This document shows positions 8,886-32,279 of a stretch of DNA of 35,776 bases, in pieces. Origin of the DNA: a virus; IMG/VR virus record IMGVR_UViG_3300006805_000078, positions 1 through 35,776 of that record. The stretch is one strand, 5' to 3'. The position numbers and the translations under genes were made by a program. The first letter of the stretch is position 1; each line of letters opens with the position of its first letter. The notes beneath the pieces are model-generated. The model was not told the DNA's origin. It did no database searches and was given only the letters and a program-made list of their open reading frames with translations.

Positions 8886-9251
8886 TCACTTGTATTTGAA
8901 TCTAAAGATTAGCCAGTCGGCTATCTCTTTCCAGTTATCCTCATAGCGCATGGCCTTGTCGTCCACGTAGGCCACAGCAGCAGGCTTACCAGTTCCCATG
9001 TAGATACCGTCGTAAGGAACGTCATTGTCCTCCAGGAAGTCACGCATCTCGCCAACCCGGCTCCACACGTCGGGCCAGGCCGCCCACGCCCTAGCAGAAT
9101 GTATTATTACCTTGTAGCCAGCATTCTGTATTCGGGCGAGGGCTTCCTTAGCTCCACGATTAAGCACCAGCTCGCCACCGATGGTGGACGCGATGGTGTC
9201 ATCGAAGTCGACCGCGATCTGCGTTTCAGCATCCCGGTCGGCCGGGGTCAT
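8886..9251 (-). CDS. HAD-superfamily hydrolase
   Basis: A 121-residue minimal HAD phosphatase. Motif I is AVDFDDTI with the nucleophile D15 and acid D17, motif II is IIHSAR (S52), and K89 with the acidic pair D97-D98 in GKPAAVAYVDDKA forms motifs III and IV. There is no large cap domain. HAD enzymes like this occur in sugar-phosphate and nucleotide pathways. It lies directly upstream of the two sugar-nucleotide genes and its ATG overlaps the stop of the exonuclease, so a role in sugar metabolism is a reasonable inference, while polynucleotide phosphatase activity cannot be ruled out. Confidence 0.88.
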   Translation of the reverse strand: MTPADRDAETQIAVDFDDTIASTIGGELVLNRGAKEALARIQNAGYKVIIHSARAWAAWPDVWSRVGEMRDFLEDNDVPYDGIYMGTGKPAAVAYVDDKAMRYEDNWKEIADWLIFRFKYK

Positions 9252-10039: not shown

Positions 10040-10287
10040 CATTGACCTCCAAGACGGATTAGTTGGAGCACCAGGGTTGTAATCACACCTGCTGCGCTCA
10101 CAGCTATACCCAACTTCCATCTTACAGATACTATGCCCTGCTGTCTACTCTCCGACAGAGCTTTCTCCTGAGCCTGGAAGCTCTCAACCTCACGTAGGCG
10201 ATCCTCGATCCGGTCTAGGCGCTCGGTCAGGTCAGACCGGACGCTGGAGATAGCCTCCATCAGGGCCTGGAACTGAGCGTACGACAC
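10039..10287 (-). CDS. coiled-coil protein with C-terminal membrane anchor
   Basis: An 82-residue protein starting at GTG, where TAGTG joins it to the tail gene by one base. Residues 12-48 are a charged coiled coil (SDLTERLDRIEDRLREVESF) and residues 58-77 a single membrane segment. This layout is like XhlA-type hemolysin or holin-accessory proteins found after tail genes. A tail-associated or second lysis role is possible. The better holin is at 28462-28677, so I call this only a holin-accessory candidate. Confidence 0.7.
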   Translation of the reverse strand: MSYAQFQALMEAISSVRSDLTERLDRIEDRLREVESFQAQEKALSESRQQGIVSVRWKLGIAVSAAGVITTLVLQLIRLGGQ

Positions 10288-12104
10288 TAGAAGTTGTTGC
10301 CCTGAACAAGTTCGAGAGTGAGCTCCTCGTGGCCGTCAGAGTAGCCTACCCACTCCATTCCGGCTATGTTTAGAGACTCATCCTGTAGACTTACGTTTCC
10401 GTGGACCACGTGTACAGACACGGCATCCCCAAGGTCCCAGCCGTCCCACGGCCTCAGGTAATCCTCCTTTAGGATGACGTCAAGGGATTTGGCGTTGTCT
10501 GTCTTTGCAGAGTCAGCAAGGCGCTCTGCTTCGTACTGGGCCGCCGCCTCGTCAATGAACCCGGCCTGTGTCACAAGCTTTGGGATTTCGCCATATATTG
10601 AAGATTCCCCTGTCGTTGCGGTAGCTCCGTCAATGGATATACCGACAGCACCAGTCGTAGACGTACCTGCTAGGAACGGAGTGCTAGGGATAACCCGAAT
10701 ATGGGTAAAGATTTCCCCGCCTCCGTCACTGTACGAATACCCACGAAGGCTTTCTGGGTAGGAAAGCTGGATTGTGCTTATGTTTGCGGATGAGACGTTG
10801 TACCTAATCCTAAACGTACCATCGTAACTTCCTGTAGACGATGGGTGGGTAGGTCCAAATATGACCTTATTTCCATCCGTCCTCTTGACCATCTCCAGTC
10901 TCGCTGTGTTGGCAAGGTATGTTACGCTTTGCTCCCCGGCGCTCCACGTCATAAGGGTAGTCGATGGGCTACCAGAAATAGACCTACTAGCGTACCTAAT
11001 CCGACTTAGTGGGAATGTGGTCTTAGCCGCATTAAACACACGGTCAAATATCTGGGTAAAGGTTTCGTAGCCTGACCCCAATGTAAACTTATCTGTCTTT
11101 TTGGGCACTCCTGATCGAAGCCAATGGGGTACTCCTGGGTACTTTCCACAGTTAGTTCGGTATACTGCTCCGTGGATTGTTGCGCTATACGATACGCCTT
11201 TTCTTAGCGCAAAAAGGTGCTTGTTAGCAGCTATCTGAGTGTCAGCCTGAGCAGTAGTTCTACCCAGGGCTATCAAAGCGCTATACATGACCGCCTTGGA
11301 CTCGTAAGGATACAGCTTTACAGAGGCATTATTTATGTAAATATTTGAGTCACCTGTGAAGCTTTTCTCCCAGGCTCCGCCGGTAGTAGTAGGGACTTGA
11401 GGTGCTTCCCCAGCCGGTGGTGTGACGTCGAGCCTAAACCTCCAAGTCTTTGCGGCCTGGAAATGTGTGGATATGGTGCCAGTGTAAGAAGCATCCCACT
11501 CGATGTAGACGCTGGCTGTAGTAATCGTAGCGCTGTCTATTGTTAGTGTGTCAGCAACAATAGAGCTTACGACAACGTTGTCTATGTATAGCTTGTTATT
11601 TGTGCTATAATATGCTGAGGAGCCTGTGGCCGGGTCCTGGTTTTCGTCGCTTGAGCTGTCATTCACTGATCCTGCAGAAAATGTGAATATCGATGACAGC
11701 GAGGAGTTGCTTATGTCTGGCGACAGGTAGCTAGTCGACGTAAACGTCAGGGCCACGGTTGGCGTGTAGTACTGGTTAAACACGGCCATGTAATCGATCC
11801 CACGGAATGTGGTCTCATTCTGGCTGATCTCTGTATCGTTCAGTATTCCGGAGCCGACCCACTTGTAGGCGTCAGCATCTGGATCATATCGATGTATTTC
11901 GTAGTGGGTTTTTAGGGGGAGGCAAACTCCTATCAGAGGATGCGTGTTGGGCAGCACCCAGTATGCCTCCCCTACGTCGTTGGCCTTCTCGGTGACGCCT
12001 ACCTCTATCGGGTCGTAAATAACATTGCTAGATGAGGAGCGCCATCCTGTAGACGTATCTAAAGGATACAGAGTTATTCGAAACTTGTTGTATGCTACTG
12101 TCAT
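10287..12104 (-). CDS. tail hub / minor tail protein, host-facing
   Basis: A 605-residue structural protein. The N-terminal part (about 1-120) has the layout common to baseplate or Tal-like proteins of actinobacterial and other siphovirus tails: YDPIEVGVTEKANDVGEAYW, a hydrophobic segment LPLKTHYEIHRYD, and TTFRGIDYMAVFNQYYTPT. The middle (about 125-270) is Ser/Thr-rich beta sequence with an inserted domain. The end (LRPWDGWDLGDAVSVHVVHG through LTLELV) resembles the C-terminal part of the same fold. It is coupled to the Dit-like gene by ATGA. No enzymatic motif is clear, so peptidoglycan or glycan cleavage is not claimed. Confidence 0.78.
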   Translation of the reverse strand: MTVAYNKFRITLYPLDTSTGWRSSSSNVIYDPIEVGVTEKANDVGEAYWVLPNTHPLIGVCLPLKTHYEIHRYDPDADAYKWVGSGILNDTEISQNETTFRGIDYMAVFNQYYTPTVALTFTSTSYLSPDISNSSLSSIFTFSAGSVNDSSSDENQDPATGSSAYYSTNNKLYIDNVVVSSIVADTLTIDSATITTASVYIEWDASYTGTISTHFQAAKTWRFRLDVTPPAGEAPQVPTTTGGAWEKSFTGDSNIYINNASVKLYPYESKAVMYSALIALGRTTAQADTQIAANKHLFALRKGVSYSATIHGAVYRTNCGKYPGVPHWLRSGVPKKTDKFTLGSGYETFTQIFDRVFNAAKTTFPLSRIRYASRSISGSPSTTLMTWSAGEQSVTYLANTARLEMVKRTDGNKVIFGPTHPSSTGSYDGTFRIRYNVSSANISTIQLSYPESLRGYSYSDGGGEIFTHIRVIPSTPFLAGTSTTGAVGISIDGATATTGESSIYGEIPKLVTQAGFIDEAAAQYEAERLADSAKTDNAKSLDVILKEDYLRPWDGWDLGDAVSVHVVHGNVSLQDESLNIAGMEWVGYSDGHEELTLELVQGNNF

Positions 12105-12961
12105 AGCCAGGCATTTCTATATATGATTGACCCGCTTGTTAACCCTCCTGTTACTACCACCGTAGACGAAAACTGCGAAGAGAGATATCCGAAGCCAGTT
12201 GTCGCGCTTGGGCTGACCTTTCCCTGGGCCAAGGTTCCGGTGAATGACCCTGTCCTTACAGTTGCCTTATTATGGTCGACATAATAAGCTGTACCAGCGG
12301 ATAGACCTATAAGCGATACAGTCCTCCCGCCTATTACGTAACTTAGGGAAGTGCCGCTTGGTGTAAATATAAATTGAGGGTAGAACTCATAGTTTCCTGT
12401 GTAGGCCACTGTTGTAGTCCCAGTTGATATTGACTGAGTATACTCGGTTACAGATATTTTTCTTGGATCAACTGCGACAAAGTTCATCTGAACATTGGTC
12501 GCAAACCCCTTGCTCGCAGACCCCTGAGACATGTTCTTATTGACACGTATTCCTGCTAACGCTGTTGGCCTGACGCTCATGTATACTTGCCTAGATGTGC
12601 TACCTGTTGGAGAGTAGAAGCGCAGTTTTCTAAATCCAGAATCTGACTCAAAAGCGTTAGGGTATGGGTCGTTAGCTATGCTAAGGGCATCCACCTTGTC
12701 CCAGAAGTCACCTAGGGTGCTCCCGAAGGCCTGGACTATTACAGATACGTCCCTTGGGCCAAAGAAGGCCTCAGCGGCCTGGATTCCGTCCCTTTGGGCC
12801 TTCTCTGCTATAAACCCTCTAACTGCTGATGTACCAAGCGTAACGCTGTCTACTATATATCCTGAAAGAGGGGTAGCCGGGGCCACCGCAGATGTAAGGG
12901 TATTCATCTCAATGTATGCAGATGACGTAGTCTGGAGAGCTATTGGCTGGTTAAAATCCAT
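12101..12961 (-). CDS. distal tail (Dit-like) protein
   Basis: A 286-residue beta-rich protein with the phage tail/Dit pattern: a GYIVDSVTLGTSAVRGFIAEK strand region, then EAFFGPRDVSVIVQAFG and LRFYSPTGSTSRQVYMSVRP, and an Ig-like or galectin-like C-terminal half with PQFIFTPSG and NKATVRTGSF. Dit forms the ring at the tail tip to which the hub protein binds. Its presence directly upstream of the 605-aa tail protein fits. It is unusual that no tail-tube or tape-measure gene lies upstream. Confidence 0.75.
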   Translation of the reverse strand: MDFNQPIALQTTSSAYIEMNTLTSAVAPATPLSGYIVDSVTLGTSAVRGFIAEKAQRDGIQAAEAFFGPRDVSVIVQAFGSTLGDFWDKVDALSIANDPYPNAFESDSGFRKLRFYSPTGSTSRQVYMSVRPTALAGIRVNKNMSQGSASKGFATNVQMNFVAVDPRKISVTEYTQSISTGTTTVAYTGNYEFYPQFIFTPSGTSLSYVIGGRTVSLIGLSAGTAYYVDHNKATVRTGSFTGTLAQGKVSPSATTGFGYLSSQFSSTVVVTGGLTSGSIIYRNAWL

Positions 12962-12962
12962 G

Positions 12963-13649
12963 TTAGGCTACCTTTCGCAAGCGTCGGATTCGTCGGAATT
13001 CGTCCTTCCATCGCGTTCTGGCGCTGAAGGCCAGCTGGTTCATTCCTATTGGGGATACATCAGTAGCTCCAGATGTAACCTGCCACTGCTGGAATGATGC
13101 CCGGTCGTTTACAAGTCGGTATAGTGCCTCTGACTGGACGAATACCTTGACGGCGTACTCTGCCTGGGAATCTAGGTCAAATGTGACCGCAGACGCAGAG
13201 ACTCCGCTAGCGCAGATGTTATACGTTCCATACCCATAAAGGCGCAGAACTGCAGGGGACTCCGTGGTGTAGCTAGGAGGGAAGTACAGTATCCCTGCGT
13301 GCAGCTCCCAGCCCGAGTTAGGCCCCTCGCCATTTCCGGTAATCAGGCTCTCCAGATATCCGGTTCGGCTTCCGCTAGAACTTCCGTACACATCTATTCG
13401 ATACACCGACAGAAACTTGTCACCACCGGCCGTGTTGGTAGTTGTAGATATGTCCACACTCTTGAGTCCATTAGAAATCGAAGGGTTGGTCCAGTTGACT
13501 TCCTTCACTATTTCCTTTGGATACACAGACTGGACATGTTGAATCCCAAGATTCAAAAGAGACTTTAACTCTGAATGAGACCATGTTATAGCATTTGAGT
13601 CTCGAAGCTCAACTTGTATTTCGTCGATTATTGTCTGGAACGTTGCCAT
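12963..13649 (-). CDS. head-tail connector/adaptor protein
   Basis: A 228-residue protein starting MATFQTIIDEIQVELRDSNA, with WSHSELKSLLNLGIQHVQ, a central beta stretch and a helical C-terminus rich in Arg (SARTRWKDEFRRIRRLRKVA). This helix-sheet-helix profile resembles gp6-like adaptor proteins that dock under the portal. It is one TAATG overlap away from the glycosyltransferase gene. The gene order, after the capsid and before the tail proteins, supports the call. Confidence 0.75.
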   Translation of the reverse strand: MATFQTIIDEIQVELRDSNAITWSHSELKSLLNLGIQHVQSVYPKEIVKEVNWTNPSISNGLKSVDISTTTNTAGGDKFLSVYRIDVYGSSSGSRTGYLESLITGNGEGPNSGWELHAGILYFPPSYTTESPAVLRLYGYGTYNICASGVSASAVTFDLDSQAEYAVKVFVQSEALYRLVNDRASFQQWQVTSGATDVSPIGMNQLAFSARTRWKDEFRRIRRLRKVA

Positions 13650-14911
13650 TAATCTCCCCTCTCTCTTAGGCCATAATTAGGATGCTCCGCGGCCCATCGG
13701 TAGGCGTCAGCCCACTCCTTGGCCCTAACCTTATAATCGTACTCTAGTAGAACTCTTTCCTTAGCTGCGCCAGATATCTGCTGACGTAGATCCTTGCTCT
13801 CTACTAGGCTCTTTATGGATGAGTACCACTCCTGAGCTGTCCTCGCAAGGAATCCGTCTACTCCGTGTCGCACCATCGAGTATGGGGCGTCGCCCCTTCT
13901 AAATCCTTCCCCGACAAACGCAGCACCGGTGACGGCGTACTCAAGCCAGTGAAGTTCTGATTTGCACCTGTCAAACTCGTCACCAACAAGTGGAGCTATC
14001 CCGATATCGGCCTTAGCGTTGGCAAGAGTCTGAGAAAACTGCTTTATGTTTTCCACGTAATAGTGTGCCTCGTCGAAGTATGGAGCAATTATATGCTCTG
14101 TCCCTGGATTGACACCAATGAATATGTTCCAGAGCTTCTTCTTGGAACGGAGCTCCTCTACGGCTTTGCCGCAGAACCCACCTTTGTGACGGTTGTGGGC
14201 TGTGTCCCACTCTCCGGCGTAGTCACGCATTCTGACTGTGCCACCGTAATAGACCACGCGTGGGAGGTCACCGCCATGGAGAGGGCGTTCAATATTGCTA
14301 GTGTAGATCGAAGGATCAATTGCATTTCTTATTACCCTTATGTTGTCGTTGAATCTGCTGTATTCGTCCTTAATAGGACCTGTGCTAACAGTTACAAGGT
14401 CAGCTCTTCGGGCCATCTGTTCGATGATATCCCACTCGAGCTTAACGTCGTAATAATATCCATTCCAATTTCTGATCTGGAAATGGTTATCATCTGTTTC
14501 GTATATAATCGCCTTATTATGGGCTCTTGTATTGAACGCAGGCCACATCATGTCAGTTATTCCATCCCTAGCCTGGAGCTCGTGCGGATGGTTCTTGGCT
14601 TCTTCCGGACTCTTAGTCCTAAAGGTGCAGTTCTTTTCAATGCATTGAGCTGATGAGTTGTAATATCGGCGGAAGACAACCACGTCTGCCCAGTCGATAT
14701 CTGCCGTGTCTATCTTTAGTAGTCCCTTGGATGCAGCCTCTGCCTGGCTCATCCCCTGAGCCTCTGGGGCCGCTATGAAGTTAACCTTGTCGATATGACG
14801 CATCTCAATTCCGTACTTCTTAAGCTCTTCGTCATACATGTGTCCACGAAAATATGCGCATGGGCCCTGCTCGGCAGTGCCCCAGATCAGAACCTTGACA
14901 GTTTCAGCCAT
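13649..14911 (-). CDS. GT4-type glycosyltransferase inside the virion gene block
   Basis: A 420-residue GT-B glycosyltransferase of the group 1/GT4 kind. The N-terminal domain carries YETDDNHFQIRNW near 137-149 and DLVTVSTGPIKDEY; the C-terminal domain starts near 219 (VVYYGGTVRMRDY) and holds ADIGIAPLVGDEF (301-313) and CKSELHWLEYAVTGA (316-330), the donor-site EX-type region. The product moves a sugar from an activated donor to an unknown acceptor. It sits between the major capsid and adaptor genes and is coupled to the adaptor by TAATG. Two tandem hairpins separate it from the capsid gene. Function in capsid glycosylation is inferred from position only. Confidence 0.88.
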   Translation of the reverse strand: MAETVKVLIWGTAEQGPCAYFRGHMYDEELKKYGIEMRHIDKVNFIAAPEAQGMSQAEAASKGLLKIDTADIDWADVVVFRRYYNSSAQCIEKNCTFRTKSPEEAKNHPHELQARDGITDMMWPAFNTRAHNKAIIYETDDNHFQIRNWNGYYYDVKLEWDIIEQMARRADLVTVSTGPIKDEYSRFNDNIRVIRNAIDPSIYTSNIERPLHGGDLPRVVYYGGTVRMRDYAGEWDTAHNRHKGGFCGKAVEELRSKKKLWNIFIGVNPGTEHIIAPYFDEAHYYVENIKQFSQTLANAKADIGIAPLVGDEFDRCKSELHWLEYAVTGAAFVGEGFRRGDAPYSMVRHGVDGFLARTAQEWYSSIKSLVESKDLRQQISGAAKERVLLEYDYKVRAKEWADAYRWAAEHPNYGLRERGD

Positions 14912-14941
14912 CAGATGTATCCTTCCATGGCTGGGTGTAGA

Positions 14942-14983
14942 GGGGCTCCGACGGCCAACTTGCGGTACAACCGCCGGAGCCCC
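14942..14983 (-). promoter_or_regulatory. 13-bp GC-rich hairpin after the capsid gene
   Basis: ggggctccgacgg (14942-14954) pairs with ccgccggagcccc (14971-14983) across a 16-base loop; one of the 13 pairs is a G-U wobble. No T-run follows on the minus strand, so it is not a clear rho-independent terminator. Placed between the capsid and glycosyltransferase genes, it may stabilise capsid mRNA or reduce read-through. Confidence 0.7.
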
Positions 14984-14984
14984 A

Positions 14985-15003
14985 CTCAGCTAACTATGCT
15001 GAG
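14985..15003 (-). promoter_or_regulatory. small 6-bp hairpin directly after the capsid stop
   Basis: ctcagc (14985-14990) and gctgag (14998-15003) pair around a 7-base loop, one base after the capsid TAA and two bases before the larger GC-rich hairpin. Together they form a tandem stem-loop element at the end of what should be the most abundant message. Confidence 0.5.
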
Positions 15004-15004
15004 A

Positions 15005-15976
15005 TTAGACAGAGACCGTGGCCTGTGTCTTCAGGATGCGATAGCGAGCGCCTGCGTCGTCGAGAAGCAGGGAGCCGAAGCGCATCTTGTAGCCGACCAA
15101 CGCCTTCTGTGCGAGTGGGTCGGAGTGATCGCCGCCCGGAGCCACGAAGTAGCTCTGAAGCGTCTGCGAGTCACCGATGGTGTACGCATCTGGGCTAAGG
15201 AAGAGAGCGTTATAAACGTTCCCTGACGAAGCGCCAGCGGTTGCGTAAACCTTCGCGTCCGAGGACACGATGAATCGTACACCAGCGAACTGGCCAATCT
15301 CGTTAGTGAGAAGTGGCGTGTTGTTGGTGTACTTGTTTGCCTCGATCCAGCCGTTGACCGTGGTGTCCGACACGAGGTCGTACTCCTGGGCAGGGTGGAT
15401 GATGCAGCGGTACGTGCCGTCAGCGAACTGAGGAACGTTTGCGCCCTTGAGGCGAGCAACCATCTGCTTTACGAATGCGCCGGAGAGAACGCCTGCCGCA
15501 GCTACTGCCGAGTTGGCAGCGTTCTGGGTCAGTGCGGTCGCGCTGGTCGCGCCGTAAACAGCGGAAGTGAGAGCCGTCGAGTGGATGTTGTCGCGTACGA
15601 GAACGTCCATCGAGCGGGTTGCCTGATACGCAATGCGCTCAGCGGCGATGCCGATGAGGTCATGCGGATTGTCGATCTGGGCGAGGTCCGTCACTGCGAC
15701 GGTCGCGCCGTACTGGACAGCCGTGAAGAACTCGCTTGAGATCGTCAGCGCCTGGTCAGTTGGTGCAGCACCTTCGGAAAGCGCCGTCGTATTGACGCCC
15801 AGGTCTGCATAGCGTGCATAGCGAAGGGTGTTCGTACCCTTAACGAAGCGAGCCGGGACATAAAGTCCTGGCATCGCGTGAACAGCACGTGCTCGAAGCT
15901 CCTCAGCCGCCTTCGCAGAAACAAGCTGCGTGACGAGATCAGAGAAGTTCGTTGTGCTGGTACTGGTCGTAGCCAT
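15005..15976 (-). CDS. major capsid protein, N4-gp56 type
   Basis: A 323-residue capsid protein with HK97-like features of the N4-gp56 family: RARAVHAMPGLYVPARFVKG, then LSEGAAPTDQALTIS, then FTAVQYGATVAVTDLAQIDN, TRSMDVLVRDNIHSTAL and PQFADGTYRCIIHPAQEY. The C-terminal half has APGGDHSDPLAQKALVGYKM. It follows the scaffold gene by 17 bases, the usual pairing. Codon use differs from neighbours: the Ile codons I inspected are nearly all ATC with no ATA, typical of a highly expressed gene. No internal delta domain or protease gene is evident. Confidence 0.93.
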   Translation of the reverse strand: MATTSTSTTNFSDLVTQLVSAKAAEELRARAVHAMPGLYVPARFVKGTNTLRYARYADLGVNTTALSEGAAPTDQALTISSEFFTAVQYGATVAVTDLAQIDNPHDLIGIAAERIAYQATRSMDVLVRDNIHSTALTSAVYGATSATALTQNAANSAVAAAGVLSGAFVKQMVARLKGANVPQFADGTYRCIIHPAQEYDLVSDTTVNGWIEANKYTNNTPLLTNEIGQFAGVRFIVSSDAKVYATAGASSGNVYNALFLSPDAYTIGDSQTLQSYFVAPGGDHSDPLAQKALVGYKMRFGSLLLDDAGARYRILKTQATVSV

Positions 15977-21104: not shown

Positions 21105-23860
21105 TAGCGAGCTCCGTTCGTTGTCGTGCTAGGAGATATCGAGACAGGAGCCGAAGAGACTCCGGAACCGACTCTTTCTCCAGCCCTGAAATCAACAAGC
21201 GATTGCTGAACTTGGGCAGGTGTAAACGTAGGACTCTTTGGTGGCCTGATTGTTACTCCGCCTCCTGAAAGGGCTACCCCGCTAGTACCTACAGTTACGC
21301 CTCCTGATGTCGCTCCAGCGTCACCGCCTATATTCGTGTACCTGAAGAAGAAGTCTTCCTTCTTGGCCTCCTGGGTGTTACCGAATAGGATAGCTGCAGG
21401 ATTCATTGCTCGGAGAGCGTTAAACCCAGCAGCATCAGCACTGGCGCTGCTCAAAGGCTTCTCATAAACGTCTCGGAACCTTTGTGTTGCAGGCCCAGGA
21501 GTTTCCATGGCCTTGAGCCTTGCCTGATCTGCCACGAGCTGGGCAAGGTTAAGATTGGTTAGTCCGCCACCTGATCCTGCTCCAGGGCCAAAGAATGGGC
21601 TTCTGGCTGATATGGCATCTCGCTCACGCTTCCGAAGTGCCTCTTCTGCCTTGGCTGCGGCCTGAGAACCAGCTGCCCTTAGTGCGAATAGCTTAGCCTG
21701 GTCAGGCACGCTACCGGCAGAGGCCCTGTTTTCTATGCCCTCTTGATACCTAAACATTGCCGTACCAACTATCTGCTGCGCAGCAGTTGCTACTGCCTCT
21801 GAACCCTTGTATTCTTCGTCCGGAGTATTTAGGAGTAGTTCGATTGTCCTTTTATCGTAACCTATAATCTCACGTGCCCTATCGCTGTCTATGACTCGTA
21901 CATAGCCGGTCGCTGGATCTACGGAGAATACGCTGCCGTTTCCTGTTCCTATGAGGGTACTTGCTACAGACTTTGACACATCTACGAGTGCCGCCCTGTA
22001 TCCTGGGCCCTTTGCAATTCCGCTAAATGGCTTCTCGGATAGGTCTGAGCCGTAAACTGGATCTGATCGTATTCTAGAGCTGTCACCTACGAATGGATCT
22101 TCACTCCCCACAACAATCTGTCCGTTTCCGTCTGTTGATATAGGAGTTGATATGTCATTTAGGTAAAGTTCATACCTGTCCATATCCATGACGAAATTGT
22201 CAGTTGTCATGAATTTATCTACTGGGTTTCCGTTGACGTCAATCTCGAAGAACTTGTATCCGATAACAGTACCAGCGCTATTTAGAACTGGCTCCTTCAC
22301 CTGTGGGGCAGATACTGAAGCTACGCTCTTGTCTGAAAGCGTATTTGATGAAAGTGTTGGTATACCACCTGTTACAGGGGTATTTGAAACTTGTATCTCT
22401 GGGGTTCCCTGGTCATTCCTGGTTAGTACCAAGAATCCGGAACCTGTCTCAACGGCATGCTTTGCCTTATAATCAGCTGCAGCGCTGGATATTAGTTGCT
22501 TAGGATCTATAGATCCATTTGTCCATACGAATGCTGTACCAGTGTATGTATCTATGAGCCTGGATACCTCTGCATCGTTGAGCTGCCACAGCTCTGTCTT
22601 CTTGTTGCCGCTAGCGTCTAGGAACCCATCCCCACCGCCGGGGACCTTCCCTCGCAAAATGTCCTTGAGAGCCTGGCCCATCAGGTCTCCGCTCGAAAGT
22701 GCATCTATACGGTCAGCATGCCTGGCATAAGCTTCCGTGTTCGCGACTGGGTTTCCGAACATCTTCTCGTTGTCAATTACGAGATCAAGAGAAGCCCTGT
22801 CAGCCTTTTCTACATCATTCATCAGGCCCATTGGGCCAGTTATCTGCTGATCGATTTCGTCTAGCAGAGATGTCATTCGGTCCTTTGTCCCAGAATCAAC
22901 ACCCTTAGAAGTGGCCAATGTCTTGACTCTCTCTCGTACGTCATCTAGTGCGTCGACCATGGCGTTAGAACTAAGCACCTCACCATTCAGCTGAATGCCT
23001 GCGTCTTGACCTGCTTTAAGTATTCTTGCCTGCATGGCGAGGTCAAGCTTAAGGAAGTTGCTTGTAAGAGTCATTCCGTCAGTACCCATAGAAAGGTAGG
23101 TAGCCTGATCTAGAACTCCCTTTTGAACTGCGGCGCCCATTGCCTGACTGAGGGCTGACCCAATCTTGCCAACGTTCTTTGACACAAAGTCAACAGCATC
23201 CTGTAGCAGCTGGGTCCTTCCCTCGGCATTCGCCTGCTTTCGTGCTGCTGCAAGATATCCCTGGATAGTTCTATACGCTGTCATGTCCTTTGTTAGGCCC
23301 ATTTCAACAGCACGTGCTAGCTCCCTCTCGTAGAAGCGAGCAAACTTTGCCGAGCTGGCGCCCTTTGCCTTCAAGTCCATGTTGACATCATTAAACGTAA
23401 CAAGGAACTCTTCCTTTATGAACATGATCTTATCTGATTCGTTGGTAGTTACAGACTTAGCCTCTCGTAGGAAGGACAAGTATCCATTTAGGTCTATTTG
23501 CTCCCCGAAGGCCCTTGTGCCATTTTCATAGGCATCAGCGTAAGCATTCATCTCTGCCTTGACTGCATCGTTACGGAACTCTGCAAGCTCTGCAGTTAGC
23601 CTATCTCGCTCAGTTGTGCCAGGAGGATAGGTTCCGATCATCTCTGCGTAGAATGCCTCAACGGCCTGTCGATCAACCGGCTGACCTCCGTATGTAGAGT
23701 CGTAGGTCTTGGTGGCCATGTTCGCGTTAAAGGCAGCCATTATGGCGGCCTTCTTCGCGGCAATCTGCTCCTTAAGTATGTTGTATATTAACGATGTAAG
23801 GTTTTGTGTTCCAGAAGTTGCCCTTCGGAATCGGGCTCGTCGCCTAGTGTTAATAGCCAT
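21104..23860 (-). CDS. 918-aa virion-associated protein of unknown function
   Basis: A large protein starting MAINTRRRARFRRATSGTQN, a very basic N-terminus that could bind DNA. The first 400 residues are long helices (ILKEQIAAKKAAIMAAFN and similar); the middle has beta sequence (YKFFEIDVNGNPVDKFMTTD); the last 120 residues are low-complexity Gly/Ser/Thr. It sits directly after the portal gene (TAATG overlap) and before the 1503-aa gene. Co-location suggests the pair are packaged in the head or at the portal, as ejection proteins are. This is inference. Confidence 0.85.
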   Translation of the reverse strand: MAINTRRRARFRRATSGTQNLTSLIYNILKEQIAAKKAAIMAAFNANMATKTYDSTYGGQPVDRQAVEAFYAEMIGTYPPGTTERDRLTAELAEFRNDAVKAEMNAYADAYENGTRAFGEQIDLNGYLSFLREAKSVTTNESDKIMFIKEEFLVTFNDVNMDLKAKGASSAKFARFYERELARAVEMGLTKDMTAYRTIQGYLAAARKQANAEGRTQLLQDAVDFVSKNVGKIGSALSQAMGAAVQKGVLDQATYLSMGTDGMTLTSNFLKLDLAMQARILKAGQDAGIQLNGEVLSSNAMVDALDDVRERVKTLATSKGVDSGTKDRMTSLLDEIDQQITGPMGLMNDVEKADRASLDLVIDNEKMFGNPVANTEAYARHADRIDALSSGDLMGQALKDILRGKVPGGGDGFLDASGNKKTELWQLNDAEVSRLIDTYTGTAFVWTNGSIDPKQLISSAAADYKAKHAVETGSGFLVLTRNDQGTPEIQVSNTPVTGGIPTLSSNTLSDKSVASVSAPQVKEPVLNSAGTVIGYKFFEIDVNGNPVDKFMTTDNFVMDMDRYELYLNDISTPISTDGNGQIVVGSEDPFVGDSSRIRSDPVYGSDLSEKPFSGIAKGPGYRAALVDVSKSVASTLIGTGNGSVFSVDPATGYVRVIDSDRAREIIGYDKRTIELLLNTPDEEYKGSEAVATAAQQIVGTAMFRYQEGIENRASAGSVPDQAKLFALRAAGSQAAAKAEEALRKRERDAISARSPFFGPGAGSGGGLTNLNLAQLVADQARLKAMETPGPATQRFRDVYEKPLSSASADAAGFNALRAMNPAAILFGNTQEAKKEDFFFRYTNIGGDAGATSGGVTVGTSGVALSGGGVTIRPPKSPTFTPAQVQQSLVDFRAGERVGSGVSSAPVSISPSTTTNGAR

Positions 23861-26169
23861 TATGCCTCACCGCCATTCTCTACTGGTAGTTCTTGTGCCA
23901 TCTGAGCTCCGTCCATAGGGAACGGAACACCGCCTTGTGCGTTTTCAGGCAGGGACTCCATAGGAGCATTGCCTGCGTTCTCAAATCCATTTAGCGATGG
24001 GGTTCCAGGAGATGGAGGATTTAGGGTTCTAGAGGCATTAAGGGATTGCTGCTGGGCCTGAAGCTGCGCCTGGGCGTCAGCCTCCTGCTGCTGCATGCCC
24101 TGGGCCTGAACGCCCTGCTGCTGCATCTGCTGGAATGTCATCATTAAGTTGGCCATCGTCATTACGGCTGCAGGATTGACAGTTGCGTCAGTCTGCTCGT
24201 CGCGAATGATGTCAAGCTCGCCCTCAGGATCTTCTACCCCGACGCGATCCATGGCACGCTCTGCTGACCAGATCCTGTTCTGTACCAGGTTGATTGCGGT
24301 CTGAGCAAGCTCGAGAGTGTCTCGAGGGGTAAGCTCAGGCGGGATTACGTCGATACGGAAGTGGTCGCCAATGATCTGGCCTACGGCCTTATCCTTGTTG
24401 GCCCAGACTCGTGCGCTCTGCAGCCAGACTTCCTTGATCCACTGGTATAGGAGCTTTCGCTTAGGTGCTATTCGTGACTCGTAGTTGGCTATAAGCGAAG
24501 CTATTGCCTTTGACGAACCTAGAACGCTAGTAGGCGCAAGTCCCAATAGAAGGTCGTTCAAGCCTGTTACGACAGCAATTTCTCGGTCGATTCGCTTGTT
24601 GTAGTCTTCAATCTGGAACTGTGGAATGAACGGCTGAAGTGCGCGCAGCTCATTCCCCGGCCCTGGGGCCGACACCTTGTTAGGCTTAGGAAGTGCTCCT
24701 GCCGGTACCTCGTCTGGGGCCTCCGGTCCTACGAGCTGCCACATTTGCCCGCCGACTACAGATTGGATCATCTGAGCCTGGTTGGTGATGCGCTCGTCCT
24801 TCTCGCGGAGAAGCTGTTCTACGTCGTAAAGCTCAGGCTTGCCGTATGGGCTACCAGGTACCTTTCCGTTCTGTAGAATGATGTACGGAATCTCACCCTT
24901 GAATTCTGGGTGGCGAGTATGTGATACTAGTGTATTCCCAACATATATTGCGTTCCACACCATAGCTGGCTTTCCAGCAGATGTAGGCTCCTTGTGCCAG
25001 TAGTCTAGAACCTCAACCTGTAGCTGTTCGTATACAGTCTCTCTTCGAAGAGGGTTACGGTCGAACTGGTTCTGGTACACATTACCAAGTGGGTCCTGGT
25101 GCGTACCGGCTATGGAGGAATATCCGTACCACTTCTCTCCCTGCTTTACAGGAATTATGTCTATATCGTAGTCTTCCTTTACCGCTTGTGGCGATAGGCC
25201 GTAGCAGTAGAGAGCCCAATCTAGACGAGTGTAGTCAGAGTTTCCAAAGCCCATGTATAGGTTCTCTGGCTGCTCTATGATTCGTACGGAAGGCATCTTG
25301 ATCTCATTGTCCCAATAGATCTTTGCGGCCGTGTATCCGTATAGACTTTTAGTTAGGGACGCCATTTCAAGCTTGAGATCCATCTCTTGCTCATTCCACC
25401 AAGCGAAGAATATTCGCTCTCGATTTGCTGCTTCCTCGCGAGCATCCTTGGTAGGTGCCTCCGGTATGTAGTGTATTACCGGAGTAACTGCCTGGAGTGA
25501 TGCTGGGATGTTTACGTATGCAGGATGTACGTTGACAGAAACGTGGGCTCGTCCTGCTAGTCGTGCGCTAGGATCTTCGGCCCAGTGGTCTGCACCGCCA
25601 AGGGTGATTGTGTCCGGGTGGTATAGTCGGTCGTATCGACGGAACATGCTGCGAAGTCGATTCTGCTCAGGCTCAAGCTGCTGCTTTCGCGTGAGGATCT
25701 CGCCAAACAGCTTGACCTCGTCTTGCTCCTCAGGCGCAATCCCCTGAACCTCGAACGAGCTCTTGAGCATCTTGACGGCAGCCTTCTGCTCGTCTGTAAG
25801 CTTTTCGAACTGAAGCGGCGTATAGTTCTTATTGATCGGCTTTACCTTGCCGCCTCGTGATATATTTATTACAGAAGGAGTGGTCGCAATCCCGCCCTCA
25901 ACGCCGGAGTTAGGGGTTCCTGCTGGTGCTGCCTTACGTATCTCTGCAGATATATCGGCAGATGTGCTAGTCTTTATAGGCTTTGCACTTGCTGCTCGGC
26001 GCTCGACTATTACTTCTCCCTTACGTATACGATTAGCTTTGTCCAGGGCGTCGCCAAGCGCCTTAATCTGCGCTGGTGTAGCGACATCCGGGTCAGTCGT
26101 GTACTGAGCCGGAACGCCCTTTCCGTCTACGTAAGTGCTCGGTATTCCTCGGACCTTAGTCTTAGCCAT
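23860..26169 (-). CDS. portal protein
   Basis: A 769-residue portal. After a disordered basic N-terminus come SMFRRYDRLYHPDTITLGG, HVSVNVHPAYVNIPASLQAV, an FFAWWNEQEMDLKLEMASLT helix and IYWDNEIKMPSVRIIEQPEN, then EVLDYWHKEP and PGSPYGKPELYDVEQLLREK, which is the wing and stem pattern of large portals. The end is a Gln-rich crown (MTFQQMQQQGVQAQGMQQQ, ADAQAQLQAQQQSLNAS). It forms the dodecameric DNA-entry ring and docks TerL, whose gene ends in a TAATG overlap at its start. The length matches large portals of podovirus-type phages. Confidence 0.93.
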   Translation of the reverse strand: MAKTKVRGIPSTYVDGKGVPAQYTTDPDVATPAQIKALGDALDKANRIRKGEVIVERRAASAKPIKTSTSADISAEIRKAAPAGTPNSGVEGGIATTPSVINISRGGKVKPINKNYTPLQFEKLTDEQKAAVKMLKSSFEVQGIAPEEQDEVKLFGEILTRKQQLEPEQNRLRSMFRRYDRLYHPDTITLGGADHWAEDPSARLAGRAHVSVNVHPAYVNIPASLQAVTPVIHYIPEAPTKDAREEAANRERIFFAWWNEQEMDLKLEMASLTKSLYGYTAAKIYWDNEIKMPSVRIIEQPENLYMGFGNSDYTRLDWALYCYGLSPQAVKEDYDIDIIPVKQGEKWYGYSSIAGTHQDPLGNVYQNQFDRNPLRRETVYEQLQVEVLDYWHKEPTSAGKPAMVWNAIYVGNTLVSHTRHPEFKGEIPYIILQNGKVPGSPYGKPELYDVEQLLREKDERITNQAQMIQSVVGGQMWQLVGPEAPDEVPAGALPKPNKVSAPGPGNELRALQPFIPQFQIEDYNKRIDREIAVVTGLNDLLLGLAPTSVLGSSKAIASLIANYESRIAPKRKLLYQWIKEVWLQSARVWANKDKAVGQIIGDHFRIDVIPPELTPRDTLELAQTAINLVQNRIWSAERAMDRVGVEDPEGELDIIRDEQTDATVNPAAVMTMANLMMTFQQMQQQGVQAQGMQQQEADAQAQLQAQQQSLNASRTLNPPSPGTPSLNGFENAGNAPMESLPENAQGGVPFPMDGAQMAQELPVENGGEA

Positions 26170-27668
26170 TATTCAGCAGCTCCAAAGTAGGAGAAAGCTA
26201 CATTCGCAGCAGCCTTCTCGGGATTCCTAATTGCGTAGCGGACAGCAATAGCAAGAGCCATTACGGCGTCTTGCTCTAGCTTCTTGTCCTCTAGCTTATA
26301 AGCCAACAGTTGCCTCCGTAGATCCTCCCAGACCCCGCCCCTTGGGAACTTGACCTGGCCTTTATCTATCACGGTCTTGAGGTCGTTTAGTAGTTCGAGC
26401 TTCTTGGACTTGGTCCCGCCGAAGTCGAAATCCCTAAGCGGCTTTATTATTGAGAACTCCTCTCGGAAGAGCTTGCCGCCCATTCCGGTAGAGTCCACGA
26501 TTGTCGTGCACTGAGCTCCTGAGTTGTATAGAAGATGGCCCTCTCGAACCATGTTCACGACTGCAGTTATGGTCTGCTTTCCGCCCCTCTTTCGGGCACG
26601 TACACCACGCATCGAGCTTCTGCTAGTTATATCTATGGTTAGCGCCCATGTTGCGTCAGATGAAATACCGGGATCACATCCCTGTACATAACGGTGAGCT
26701 GACTTTGGCGCATCCTCTAGTTCTAGCGTAGTATCGAAACTGGCCTCTATGACCTGGGAAGAGAAGAAAGCTTTCCTTGACTCTATGAAGTATCCGTCGA
26801 TGTTCTGTGGGACTAGGTATTCTGCCTGCTGCCGGACTACGGCATCGAAGTCTTCCTGTCGTAGGCCGAATCCTATGTTGTCCCTGGTAGAAAGTCTGAA
26901 CGATATGAACTGGTCGTCCCTGGATGGGTTCTCCGGATTACCCATCTCCCACAGGTCGGCGTAGTCGTTGATTCCCTCTGTTGGCGTTCCGATGAAGTGA
27001 AGTGGCCCACCGGTAGAGAGCCTTCGGAGGTTGAGAACTTCCTGGTAGATTGTTATCAGGTGCGGCTCAAAGGCCGCTTCGTCGAATGAGATCCCTTGCA
27101 TGTCCTTGCCTAGAAGGGCCTTAGCCTTGTCCTGTGTTGTCCTGAAGTGTATGCTGGCCCCGCCTACCACTGGGCTGAACTTTATCCAGAGATACTCGCC
27201 ACGATACTTCTTCTCGAAGTCGGCAACCTTTCCAAGCTCCTTAGTTAGCGGACAGCCACGGTCTCCCTGCGCCTGGTGAGCTCCCTGAAGGATCATAGAG
27301 ATTTCCCGGTGAACCAATTCAGCAGTCTCCTGTTGAATCCCGACGTGATACCACTCGTACGGATCATTGATCCAGCGCCCTGCATCTGCAGTATTTCCCT
27401 TCTCGGGAGGTCTAATCCCAAGCTTGTATAGTGCGTGGTGCATACATACGACCGCCATCGCGAGAGTTTTCCCGGCACGATTGCCCGCGGAAACAACTGT
27501 CGTGAGGTACCGTGGCCGGAACCCATCGTCCGCTCGATCTGCGCAGGCCTGCCACCAGGCAACTTGACCTGGGTTTCCTTTGATACCGAGCCAGCGAGAA
27601 GCAAAGAACTCGATATCACCGCGGCCCCTAGCCAGATCGATAGCGGTTTGTGTGCTAACAGGGTTCAA
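26169..27668 (-). CDS. terL: terminase large subunit
   Basis: A 499-residue packaging motor. The ATPase has Walker A AGNRAGKT (61-68) and Walker B QGISFDEAAF with D196-E197. The nuclease has acidic residues in VQGCDPGISSDATW (D332), TTIVDSTGMGGK (D392) and EQDAVMALAIA (D467), the RNase H-like triad. It cuts concatemers and drives DNA into the head through the portal. The start is TTG, overlapping the upstream TGA as TTGA. A canonical lead-in helix FFASRWLGIKGNPGQ precedes the ATPase. Confidence 0.97.
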   Translation of the reverse strand: MNPVSTQTAIDLARGRGDIEFFASRWLGIKGNPGQVAWWQACADRADDGFRPRYLTTVVSAGNRAGKTLAMAVVCMHHALYKLGIRPPEKGNTADAGRWINDPYEWYHVGIQQETAELVHREISMILQGAHQAQGDRGCPLTKELGKVADFEKKYRGEYLWIKFSPVVGGASIHFRTTQDKAKALLGKDMQGISFDEAAFEPHLITIYQEVLNLRRLSTGGPLHFIGTPTEGINDYADLWEMGNPENPSRDDQFISFRLSTRDNIGFGLRQEDFDAVVRQQAEYLVPQNIDGYFIESRKAFFSSQVIEASFDTTLELEDAPKSAHRYVQGCDPGISSDATWALTIDITSRSSMRGVRARKRGGKQTITAVVNMVREGHLLYNSGAQCTTIVDSTGMGGKLFREEFSIIKPLRDFDFGGTKSKKLELLNDLKTVIDKGQVKFPRGGVWEDLRRQLLAYKLEDKKLEQDAVMALAIAVRYAIRNPEKAAANVAFSYFGAAE

Positions 27669-29997: not shown

Positions 29998-31038
29998 TTA
30001 TCTTGACCATGTCGCAATACCACTCACCGTGGGTGATGGGGCTGTGTACTTTGTTCCAAATCCGCTTGCGTTTGTATATGTGTATACCACTAGATCATTT
30101 GCTGCATCAGCAAGGTACACCACATCAGTCCCTCCGTTTCCTACTTGTAAGTTCTTGTTAGTACCAGAGCTATTGGTGGCAGCTGGCATCCCGGATGGGT
30201 TAGTCATTTTTGTACCGAATCCAGACGAGGAGGAAAAGTTTACAATAATTGGAGCAGCAGAAAATAGTCCGCAAAGAATTTTCTGGGCTGTTGCTGCGCT
30301 TCCAACAACGTTTAGCGATCTCATTGCCGTTAGGCTTGTGGCGCTTACATTAGCAAACTTTGTACCAAATCCAGTTCCTTGTGTGTATGCAAAAGCGAAT
30401 ACCCAAGGGGTTCCGTTACTTCCACCAACATTAGCAAAAACAGAATTTCCAAATGGAGAGAACCTAGTTCCTTGGCCGCTATTTGCTGAAGTTGGAGTAT
30501 TTAAATCTGCAGAATTTGTTCTCTTCGAGCCCCATTGGGTGCTGTTGCTCCAAGCCCAAGCCTGTATGTATGATGGGTTTGAGCTACTTACGGAAACAAC
30601 ATCAGTTTCTGCTGGTCCAAAAACTGGATCTGTGATATCTACCACCCCAACACTTGCTGGGGTATAGGTAGATACTACCTGGGATCCATCGACAGCTTCA
30701 ATATCTATACTTGATGCTCTAATTGTTGGCTCTGGAGCCGATGCAGTTACCATATACGTTCCAGATGCATTGACGTCTACGTAGTTAGCACTTATAAGGA
30801 CTCCGCCAGCGGTATCAACATTGCCATACGTACCATTTGTCCAATACCTAAATCCAGCCCTGGTTGAAGTTGATACTCCTACCATCCCCCTCTTGCTCGG
30901 ATGCATGGTTGGATTGTCTAAACCAGTACTACCAGTACCACTAGAAGTCCCCCACCCGGAATTCCAATAGTATGATGCAGTCTCCGTGACAAGATGTGTT
31001 CCCTTATGTAGTTGCTGCTGAGATGCACCTATAATCAT
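29998..31038 (-). CDS. repetitive fibre or receptor-binding-type protein
   Basis: A 346-residue protein. Residues from about 170 on carry repeats of the kind SGFGTK(F/M/Y) that follow a strand: YTQGTGFGTKF, SSSSGFGTKM, YTNASGFGTKY, with a less regular STQWGSKR earlier. This resembles a beta-propeller-like repeat array. The ATG at 31036-31038 overlaps the stop of the upstream fibre gene as ATGA, chosen over a frame starting nine codons earlier. No hydrolase motif is visible. Host recognition is a reasonable inference for the pair. Confidence 0.8.
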   Translation of the reverse strand: MIIGASQQQLHKGTHLVTETASYYWNSGWGTSSGTGSTGLDNPTMHPSKRGMVGVSTSTRAGFRYWTNGTYGNVDTAGGVLISANYVDVNASGTYMVTASAPEPTIRASSIDIEAVDGSQVVSTYTPASVGVVDITDPVFGPAETDVVSVSSSNPSYIQAWAWSNSTQWGSKRTNSADLNTPTSANSGQGTRFSPFGNSVFANVGGSNGTPWVFAFAYTQGTGFGTKFANVSATSLTAMRSLNVVGSAATAQKILCGLFSAAPIIVNFSSSSGFGTKMTNPSGMPAATNSSGTNKNLQVGNGGTDVVYLADAANDLVVYTYTNASGFGTKYTAPSPTVSGIATWSR

Positions 31039-32279
31039 GGAGTTGTGTCTCCTAAGACTACCCACGTATTTGTCGCGCGCTTAATAGCTGTGGCTGATGA
31101 CCATTGTGCTCTAAGCTTTAGTCCGTCTGACGAGTTAACCGTTACTCCTGTTCCGGCGACTATCGTAACTGCACCAGCACCCGCTCTTAGTATATGCACC
31201 TGTGCTCCTACTCCGAAAGCCACTGTTGAGTTTGGTGGTATTGTGATGTTCAATGCAGTTCCAAGCGTTACCTCGACCATTTTATCCTTGTCAGTAAGTG
31301 CAAGGGTGTATGCTACAGTTTGTACGTTAGCAGTGATGTCAAGAGTTGATACGCCAGACGTTACTGTCTGAAATGAGACACCGCCAGAACCGTTAGCCTG
31401 AAGTAGCTGTCCTGACGTTGCTGCGCCAGAGGAGATCGCAACAGTCCCAACAGCCTGGGCAATAAGTTGGCTGGAGCCAACGGAGGTTGCCGAGAGGTGG
31501 GTGGAGTTGATGCTGCCAGCAACGATAGAGACCGTCGATGTCCCAGATGCTGTGGAGACGGAGGCTGGGGAGGTCCCGATGACAGCATTGACGTATGTCC
31601 CTGCTGTCTGGTAGTTGGCGTTAAGGCTGACCGTAATTGCCGTAGTCCCAGTTGCGGAGATAGGAGATGTCCCGACAACGCCAGTGACATATGTCCCAGA
31701 TGGCTGATAACTCCCAGCAGACTGGAATCCAGTGGTATTAATGGAGATGCTTACTGCACCCGCTGTAGAGAGAGACGCAGAAATCGGTAGCGTTGCACTC
31801 ACGCTAGAGGCGTAATTTCCAGAAGCCTGGTAGCTTCCTGCGGTCTGGTAGTTTGCGTTGAGGGAGATTGTTGCCGTCGTTCCAGAGACTGCGGCACTAA
31901 TTGGAGAAGTCCCTATTATGTTTGTTATCCCAGTGGCGTCTGCCGGGAGTGTACTCCACGTCACTCCACCGGCTCCATTAGCAGTAAGGACGTACCCGCT
32001 AGAGGCAGAGGTCGATACTATAGATATTGTCTTACCGGAACTTGTGGAAGTCGCAGATATTGGGTATGTTCCAGCAAGTGTTGTTACTGATACTGCGTTA
32101 GTAAGAGTAAGGAACTCGTTTGTGTCTATCCACTCAAGGGTTGGCTCTGCTCCTCGCAGGTCACCCTCAAACTCTTCGTATAGCTGGTCAGGTATAGAGA
32201 AGACGGTGTTAGCCGGCCCCTTTATGTCATATCCATTCCAATGGATATTTATATCCCTACCGAATCTAAACGTTGCCAC
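31035..32279 (-). CDS. repetitive tail fibre-type protein
   Basis: A 414-residue protein. The first 60 residues (FRFGRDINIHWNGYDIKGP) look like a virion-attachment segment. The middle carries imperfect repeats of GTSPISA, then a Thr/Ser strand, then SLNANYQTAGSYQ and SGxY. The end has KDKMVEVTLGTALNITIPPN and AFGVGAQVHILRAGAGAVTI, as in the terminal part of many phage fibres. Such Ser/Thr-Ala repeat shafts are typical of trimeric fibres that bind host surface sugar. Nucleotide repeats invite slippage or domain shuffling. Confidence 0.85.
   Translation of the reverse strand: MATFRFGRDINIHWNGYDIKGPANTVFSIPDQLYEEFEGDLRGAEPTLEWIDTNEFLTLTNAVSVTTLAGTYPISATSTSSGKTISIVSTSASSGYVLTANGAGGVTWSTLPADATGITNIIGTSPISAAVSGTTATISLNANYQTAGSYQASGNYASSVSATLPISASLSTAGAVSISINTTGFQSAGSYQPSGTYVTGVVGTSPISATGTTAITVSLNANYQTAGTYVNAVIGTSPASVSTASGTSTVSIVAGSINSTHLSATSVGSSQLIAQAVGTVAISSGAATSGQLLQANGSGGVSFQTVTSGVSTLDITANVQTVAYTLALTDKDKMVEVTLGTALNITIPPNSTVAFGVGAQVHILRAGAGAVTIVAGTGVTVNSSDGLKLRAQWSSATAIKRATNTWVVLGDTTP

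Follow-up and report, generated by a model that had tools for sequence, protein, structure and literature searches.

A glycosyltransferase gene held between the capsid and adaptor genes of uncultured phages suggests glycosylation of virion proteins

The viral record IMGVR_UViG_3300006805_000078 (35,776 nucleotides, analysed over its full length and referred to here as the window) carries a glycosyltransferase (GT) gene of GT4 type that lies between the genes for the major capsid protein and a head-tail adaptor (Table 1). This placement is invariant among relatives with enough intact sequence, the gene is under purifying selection, and genes for sugar-nucleotide enzymes occur together with it. 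Glycosylation of virion proteins is the best explanation, because the slot is fixed, the sugar-nucleotide genes are constant companions and no base-modifying enzyme of the thymidylate-synthase type was found in 26 records. We give a probability of about 0.6 to the proposal that a soluble GT places a phage-made sugar on virion proteins, most likely on the exposed surface of the capsid, and we hypothesize that the capsid protein is the acceptor.

Relatives were collected from 2.9 million viral contigs by a capsid-seeded scan, a GT-seeded scan and a scan with a capsid profile, and all three, with the capsid and GT seeds used separately, gave the same arrangement. The order capsid-GT-adaptor occurs in 59 loci that have all three genes, the sole other row (L007) being a piece of the window itself on the opposite strand. 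Counted as distinct GT sequences, 57 have the capsid gene upstream and the adaptor gene downstream, and 71 have the capsid gene upstream. Contigs with enough intact sequence include neither an exception to this slot nor a relative with an empty site; over all loci, the capsid genes with no GT gene after them are limited to contig ends, L007, one contig that is rearranged (L081) and L004 and L006, a pair of distant records added by hand. The coupling of the GT gene to the gene that follows is equally regular, since the two overlap or abut in 57/57 distinct sequences; in the window, the GT stop and adaptor start codons form TAATG, with base 13649 common to both open reading frames (ORFs). A sequence-only reading of this DNA had described both the capsid-GT-adaptor order and the TAATG junction correctly, and had named relatives that hold the gene away from the head genes as the observation that would speak against it; instead, the slot is kept in all relatives with enough intact sequence. 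In one contig (3300008259_005467, L021:4654-5779) the GT gene is split over two frames by a frameshift that is either real or a sequencing error.

No close match to the window was found among 50,697 phage records by megablast of the late region or tblastn of the portal. Two possible leads to a host were also rejected. The only match in a bacterial genome (L238:9908-10153, CANJJD010000040.1) is a GT fragment in a contig of an alphaproteobacterial metagenome-assembled genome, and no host is assigned from it because the fragment is joined to bacterial DNA of 64% GC in what looks like an assembly chimera; an actinobacterial host was considered via WhiB, which is absent from 26 records.

Sequence comparisons indicate that the GT gene is a core gene of the group rather than a passenger. 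In pairs with measurable dS, the GT has a ratio of nonsynonymous to synonymous divergence (dN/dS) of 0.028-0.076, a sign of strong purifying selection. On the far side of the deep split that divides the group, proteins share with the window ~87% identity in the capsid, ~66% in the GT, 60-65% in the portal, ~50% in the scaffold, ~40% in the adaptor, ~40% in two sugar-nucleotide enzymes of the short-chain dehydrogenase/reductase (SDR) superfamily, and ~33% in the product of the first tail gene. Finding the loci via the capsid inflates the capsid value, while the comparison of the GT with the adaptor, scaffold and tail genes carries no bias from the GT, and it is because the GT exceeds these three across the deep split that it is placed in the core. 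The nearest pair, the window and L001, shows the reverse for the adaptor, which there is more conserved than the GT.

Several lines of evidence identify the enzyme. The window protein matches the glycosyltransferase family phrog_7162 (E 5.5e-22), and an AlphaFold2 model built from 42 relatives (predicted local distance difference test, pLDDT, 89; predicted template modelling score, pTM, 0.87) has as its best Foldseek matches in the Protein Data Bank (PDB) the GT4 enzymes BshA, MshA, PimA, GlgM and PglA (E 1e-12 to 6e-15). The Pfam family Glyco_trans_1_2 (PF13524) scores below threshold for the window GT (21.8 bits against a cut-off of 25) and matches 42/42 relatives at E<=1e-3 (best 8.3e-9); a search by sequence for relatives of solved structure found none. 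Hydrophobic segments that could span a membrane are absent from the protein, in which the highest mean Kyte-Doolittle value over 19 amino acids is 0.66. In the motif KSELHWLEY, the second Glu of the EX7E signature (E324) is invariant, and the position of the first Glu is variable and followed by an invariant K317-S318. Other invariant residues are also of the kind that lines a GT4 pocket, giving a set that comprises G16-P17, R227, R229, K249, K317-S318-E319 and E324. The protein is thus GT4-type by its modelled two-domain GT-B fold, which bears out the family call made in the sequence-only reading, and is not a canonical GT4 member, because the first Glu of EX7E is not kept. BshA, MshA, PimA and PglA share this GT-B/GT4 fold with the window GT at ~10-15% identity; these cellular enzymes have small-molecule, lipid or glycan acceptors and a complete EX7E motif.

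The window also encodes enzymes predicted to act on a nucleotide-activated sugar, namely a 4-dehydrogenase/epimerase-type SDR, an RmlC-like 3,5-epimerase and an RmlD-like 4-keto reductase (Table 1). The RmlD-like and SDR genes are present in 31/31 loci that reach far enough, and the RmlC-like family is found in 24/26 long records, some of which may be fragments. A small phosphatase of the haloacid dehalogenase (HAD) type beside these genes is accessory, being present in 13/38 RmlD-bearing loci. The best solved relative of the SDR is 6vo6, a 'putative sugar-nucleotide epimerase/dehydratase' (E 1.2e-23, a match at the level of the superfamily), which we take to be the Campylobacter C4-dehydrogenase Cj1427. 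The Campylobacter heptose pathway includes a C4-dehydrogenase, a C3/C5-epimerase and a C4-reductase (PMC10680097), the same three enzyme classes as the viral SDR, RmlC-like and RmlD-like proteins. This likeness also lies at superfamily level. The genes do not make up the RmlABCD set for deoxythymidine diphosphate (dTDP)-rhamnose, as the RmlC-like and RmlD-like proteins score below equivalog cut-offs, the SDR is weakly RmlB-like (5.3e-8), and no RmlA was found among the scanned ORFs of the window. In 13/21 relatives (L245-L256, for example L245:1844-2281) a second, small GT2-type gene (~180 amino acids) lies upstream of the GT next to the capsid, at a distance of ~13-16 kb; it is not part of the core, because the window lacks it.

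The 93-nt gap between the capsid and GT genes contains a GC-rich hairpin that the sequence-only reading did not mention. Its minimum free energy is -43 kcal/mol (z -3.65), which none of 200 shuffled sequences equalled. Among 59 distinct sequences, the best stem within 80 nt past the capsid stop codon has a median of 13 bp and reaches at least 9 bp in 93%, and the stems after all other tested genes have medians of 5-7 bp. These post-capsid stems comprise 33 distinct sequences whose 5' arms are C-rich or G-rich. In the window the gap yielded no intrinsic terminator call, the hairpin having no U-tract, and no Rfam family. Codon bias is stronger in the capsid than in the GT gene in 51/51 paired loci (median effective number of codons 40.7 versus 51.3), and between the window and L001 dS is 0.28 for the capsid and 0.82 for the GT, so synonymous divergence of the capsid gene is suppressed. 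Because of the hairpin after the capsid gene and the weaker codon bias of the GT gene, we conclude that the GT is probably made in the same operon as the capsid at a level that is stepped down after the capsid gene. The idea that placement ties GT expression to that of the capsid therefore holds for the shared operon and probably not for an equal level, and the tight coupling of the GT is to the adaptor rather than to the capsid.

The mechanism that we propose begins with a soluble, active GT4-type enzyme that the head operon would supply late in infection. The SDR, RmlC-like and RmlD-like enzymes of the phage would remodel a nucleotide-activated sugar, and the GT would attach this sugar to at least one virion protein, with the outward-facing surface of the major capsid protein as the most likely site. 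The hairpin after the capsid gene would step expression down, probably to an amount that suits a catalyst rather than a stoichiometric component. In this scheme we infer the catalytic activity, the sugar, the use of a protein acceptor and the choice of the capsid over the adaptor or a tail protein. A more specific version, by analogy with heptose synthesis in Campylobacter, is that the group makes an unusual activated sugar from a nucleotide sugar by 4-oxidation, 3,5-epimerisation and 4-reduction and that the GT puts it on the shell as an obligatory, conserved step, glycosylation then being a core trait of the head and not an accessory one; this we offer tentatively, as a possibility that is more doubtful than the general proposal.

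Precedents for such a system exist among mycobacteriophages. In cluster O phages such as Corndog, O-methyltransferase and GT genes (gp35-gp38 in Corndog) lie between the portal and capsid protease genes (PMC4351075), a layout that was confirmed in the annotated genome of Idergollasper. Glycosylated capsid and tail-tube proteins are described for Che8, Corndog and Myrna (Freeman 2023, as related in PMC12363180 and PMC12619734). The window and Corndog are alike in that genes for sugar transfer stand among the head genes of a tailed phage, and a phage GT gene lying with structural genes, as in the Che8 and Corndog type of system, is found in 57 distinct capsid-GT-adaptor loci. The two differ in that the Corndog genes encode several small GTs and an O-methyltransferase, lie between portal and protease rather than capsid and adaptor, and have no RmlC or RmlD genes annotated in the region viewed, so the likeness is drawn as an analogy and membership in the Corndog system is not claimed. 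Capsid glycosylation is thus fairly called rarely described, as the sequence-only reading had it, but the cluster O mycobacteriophages provide a precedent for the architecture (PMC4351075, PMC12363180). The Manatee Spring podovirus MW202801 has a homologous capsid (29% identity) and a remote homologue of the GT (profile E 1.7e-15), which lies ~4 kb downstream of the capsid gene, before the tail genes, in a putative sugar-modification cluster that also holds a second GT, a NodB-like protein, a PhyH-like dioxygenase and a methyltransferase. Close relatives of the MW202801 GT were not found in the viral contigs.

Several observations weigh against the glycosylation of the capsid by this enzyme. 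The hairpin and the codon bias speak against simple co-expression of the GT with the capsid, the full EX7E motif is not retained, and the acceptors of GT4 enzymes are mostly small molecules, lipids and glycans. In addition, linkage of a GT to this capsid fold is not obligatory, because the annotations of two members of the wider capsid family show no GT in this slot, namely those of MW202637 and of Bacillus phage Pascal, whose capsid is a distant homologue of that in the window. Che8 (cluster F) encodes the GTs gp108-gp110, of which gp110 is tied to capsid glycosylation (PMC12363180). It would share with the window a phage GT linked to capsid glycosylation. However, the Che8 GT genes lie at the right-hand end of the genome, a long way from the capsid gene, and the window GT has no detectable similarity to gp110, itself a small protein (BLASTP E 1.0), so neither the place nor the sequence of a GT proves its function.

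If a virion protein is modified, the acceptor could be the adaptor or a tail protein instead of the capsid, for which we see a modest chance. The overlap or abutment of the GT and adaptor genes and the hairpin that separates the capsid from the GT are both as this alternative would have them, but gene overlaps are common in phage operons and the adaptor has diverged in sequence much more than the GT. Solved homologues of the adaptor form a low-copy, largely buried ring, which also counts against it as the acceptor. For tail proteins, PMC12363180 reports that the targets of mycobacteriophage GTs include the tail tube in addition to the capsid.

It is also conceivable, but unlikely, that the enzyme alters a surface glycan of the host late in infection, either to mask receptors and so avoid re-adsorption to debris or to exclude superinfection. 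GT4 enzymes often act on envelope glycans, and sugars of the RmlC/RmlD type are typical of surface polysaccharides. However, the GT has no membrane segment, no flippase, O-acetylase or polymerase gene was found among the searched ORFs of the window, and a fixed slot amid head genes is atypical for genes with such a role.

A further alternative, to which we assign a low probability, is that the GT glycosylates modified bases of the phage DNA as a defence against host nucleases and that its site in the head operon is incidental. Phage GTs can act on DNA, this role has been proposed for the GTs of the freshwater actinophages E7 and F5 (PMC10202952), and 5/21 relatives have genes of the C5-methyltransferase type. 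Against this, the GT is universal, while no C5 methylase occurs in the window or in 16/21 records. Searches for an enzyme that would supply the modified base found no gene of the thymidylate-synthase/hydroxymethylase type in 26 records (with a working control), no base-hydroxylating enzyme among the scanned ORFs of the window, and no TET/JBP match in a search that lacked a positive control. Expression from a head operon would also come late for shielding DNA that is being replicated.

Much less probable is a GT fold that has become a non-catalytic assembly factor or a minor virion protein for head completion, which would explain the invariant slot, the core status and the half-kept EX7E signature, with E324 invariant and its first position variable, but against which stand the many invariant residues of the GT4-pocket type and the accompanying sugar-nucleotide genes. 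That the gene is a horizontally acquired moron, its position an accident of insertion, we consider very improbable, for although GTs are frequent as phage morons and Arthrobacter phage Racecar and Klebsiella phages carry relatives of the fold in other places, within this group no contig with enough intact sequence has an empty site, dN/dS is 0.03-0.08, and from one side of the deep split to the other the GT retains more identity than the products of the scaffold, adaptor and tail genes.

The late genes of the window all lie on the minus strand. The sequence-only reading held that the GT alone interrupts the series portal, scaffold, capsid, adaptor, which is wrong, because two giant ORFs sit between the portal and the scaffold-like ORF. 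The longer of the two, of 1503 amino acids, diverges fast among relatives and is much longer in some (>2000 amino acids in L051 and others). Identity of the scaffold-like ORF across relatives is 43-96%. The capsid protein that follows it is Thr-rich at its N terminus. The adaptor was recognised from its AlphaFold2 model (pLDDT 82), for which Foldseek found the P1 connector (E 2.3e-5) and the portal-tail proteins of KHP30, cyanophage A4 and GP4; its sequence has no family match in Pfam and PHROG profile searches. Upstream of the terminase, positions 31035-32279 encode a repetitive, Thr/Ser/Gly-rich ORF of 414 amino acids with a fibre-like composition, which is possibly another candidate acceptor of glycans. 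A tRNA-Ile gene (anticodon tat) occupies positions 39-114, at the extreme end of the record and close to genes for replication (DnaB, 720-2012).

Table 1. Genes of the late region, the capsid-GT gap and the sugar-nucleotide genes in the window, in order of decreasing position
Feature	Coordinates	Strand	Basis or remark
Terminase	26169-27668	-	Late region
Portal	23860-26169	-	Late region
Giant ORF, 918 aa	21104-23860	-	No family match; between portal and scaffold-like ORF
Giant ORF, 1503 aa	16593-21104	-	No family match; between portal and scaffold-like ORF
Scaffold-like ORF, 186 aa	15994-16554	-	Directly upstream of capsid gene; weak phrog_10 match only
Major capsid protein, 323 aa	15005-15976	-	phrog_1357 major head protein, E 9.5e-41; Pfam Phage_capsid_4, 2.6e-10
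Capsid-GT gap, 93 nt, GC-rich hairpin	14912-15004	-	Folding; stem arms GGGGCTCCGGCGGTTG / TGGCCGTCGGAGCCCC
GT4-type glycosyltransferase, 420 aa, soluble (predicted)	13649-14911	-	phrog_7162 and predicted fold
Head-tail adaptor, podovirus-type portal-tail adaptor fold, 228 aa	12963-13649	-	Predicted structure
Dit-like tail gene	12101-12961	-	Late region
Further gene, late region	10287-12104	-	
Small HAD-type phosphatase, accessory	8886-9251	-	Beside sugar genes; phrog_1238, 7.6e-17; TIGR01689 capsule biosynthesis phosphatase, 1.2e-6, sub-threshold
RmlD-like NDP-4-keto-sugar reductase, 285 aa	8022-8879	-	Pfam RmlD_sub_bind, 8.9e-37; TIGR01214 rmlD, 2.4e-35, below cut-off
Nucleotide-sugar SDR, 4-dehydrogenase/epimerase type, 316 aa	7075-8025	-	Pfam Epimerase, 1.2e-27
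RmlC-like NDP-4-keto-sugar 3,5-epimerase, 181 aa	3985-4530	-	RGxH motif; dTDP_sugar_isom PF00908, 1.1e-32; PDB RmlC, 1.7e-25
aa, amino acids; NDP, nucleoside diphosphate.

Direct knowledge of glycosylated tailed-phage virions comes from a small number of isolates, most of them mycobacteriophages. Across dozens of distinct uncultured phages, the GT described here has a place in the head operon no less constant than that of the capsid gene and is accompanied by a sugar-nucleotide module, which makes a sugar-coated virion a concrete and testable prediction for a large phage group and offers an alternative to the DNA-protection role that has been proposed for some GTs of aquatic phages. These observations suggest that glycosylated phage heads may be common beyond the mycobacteriophages.

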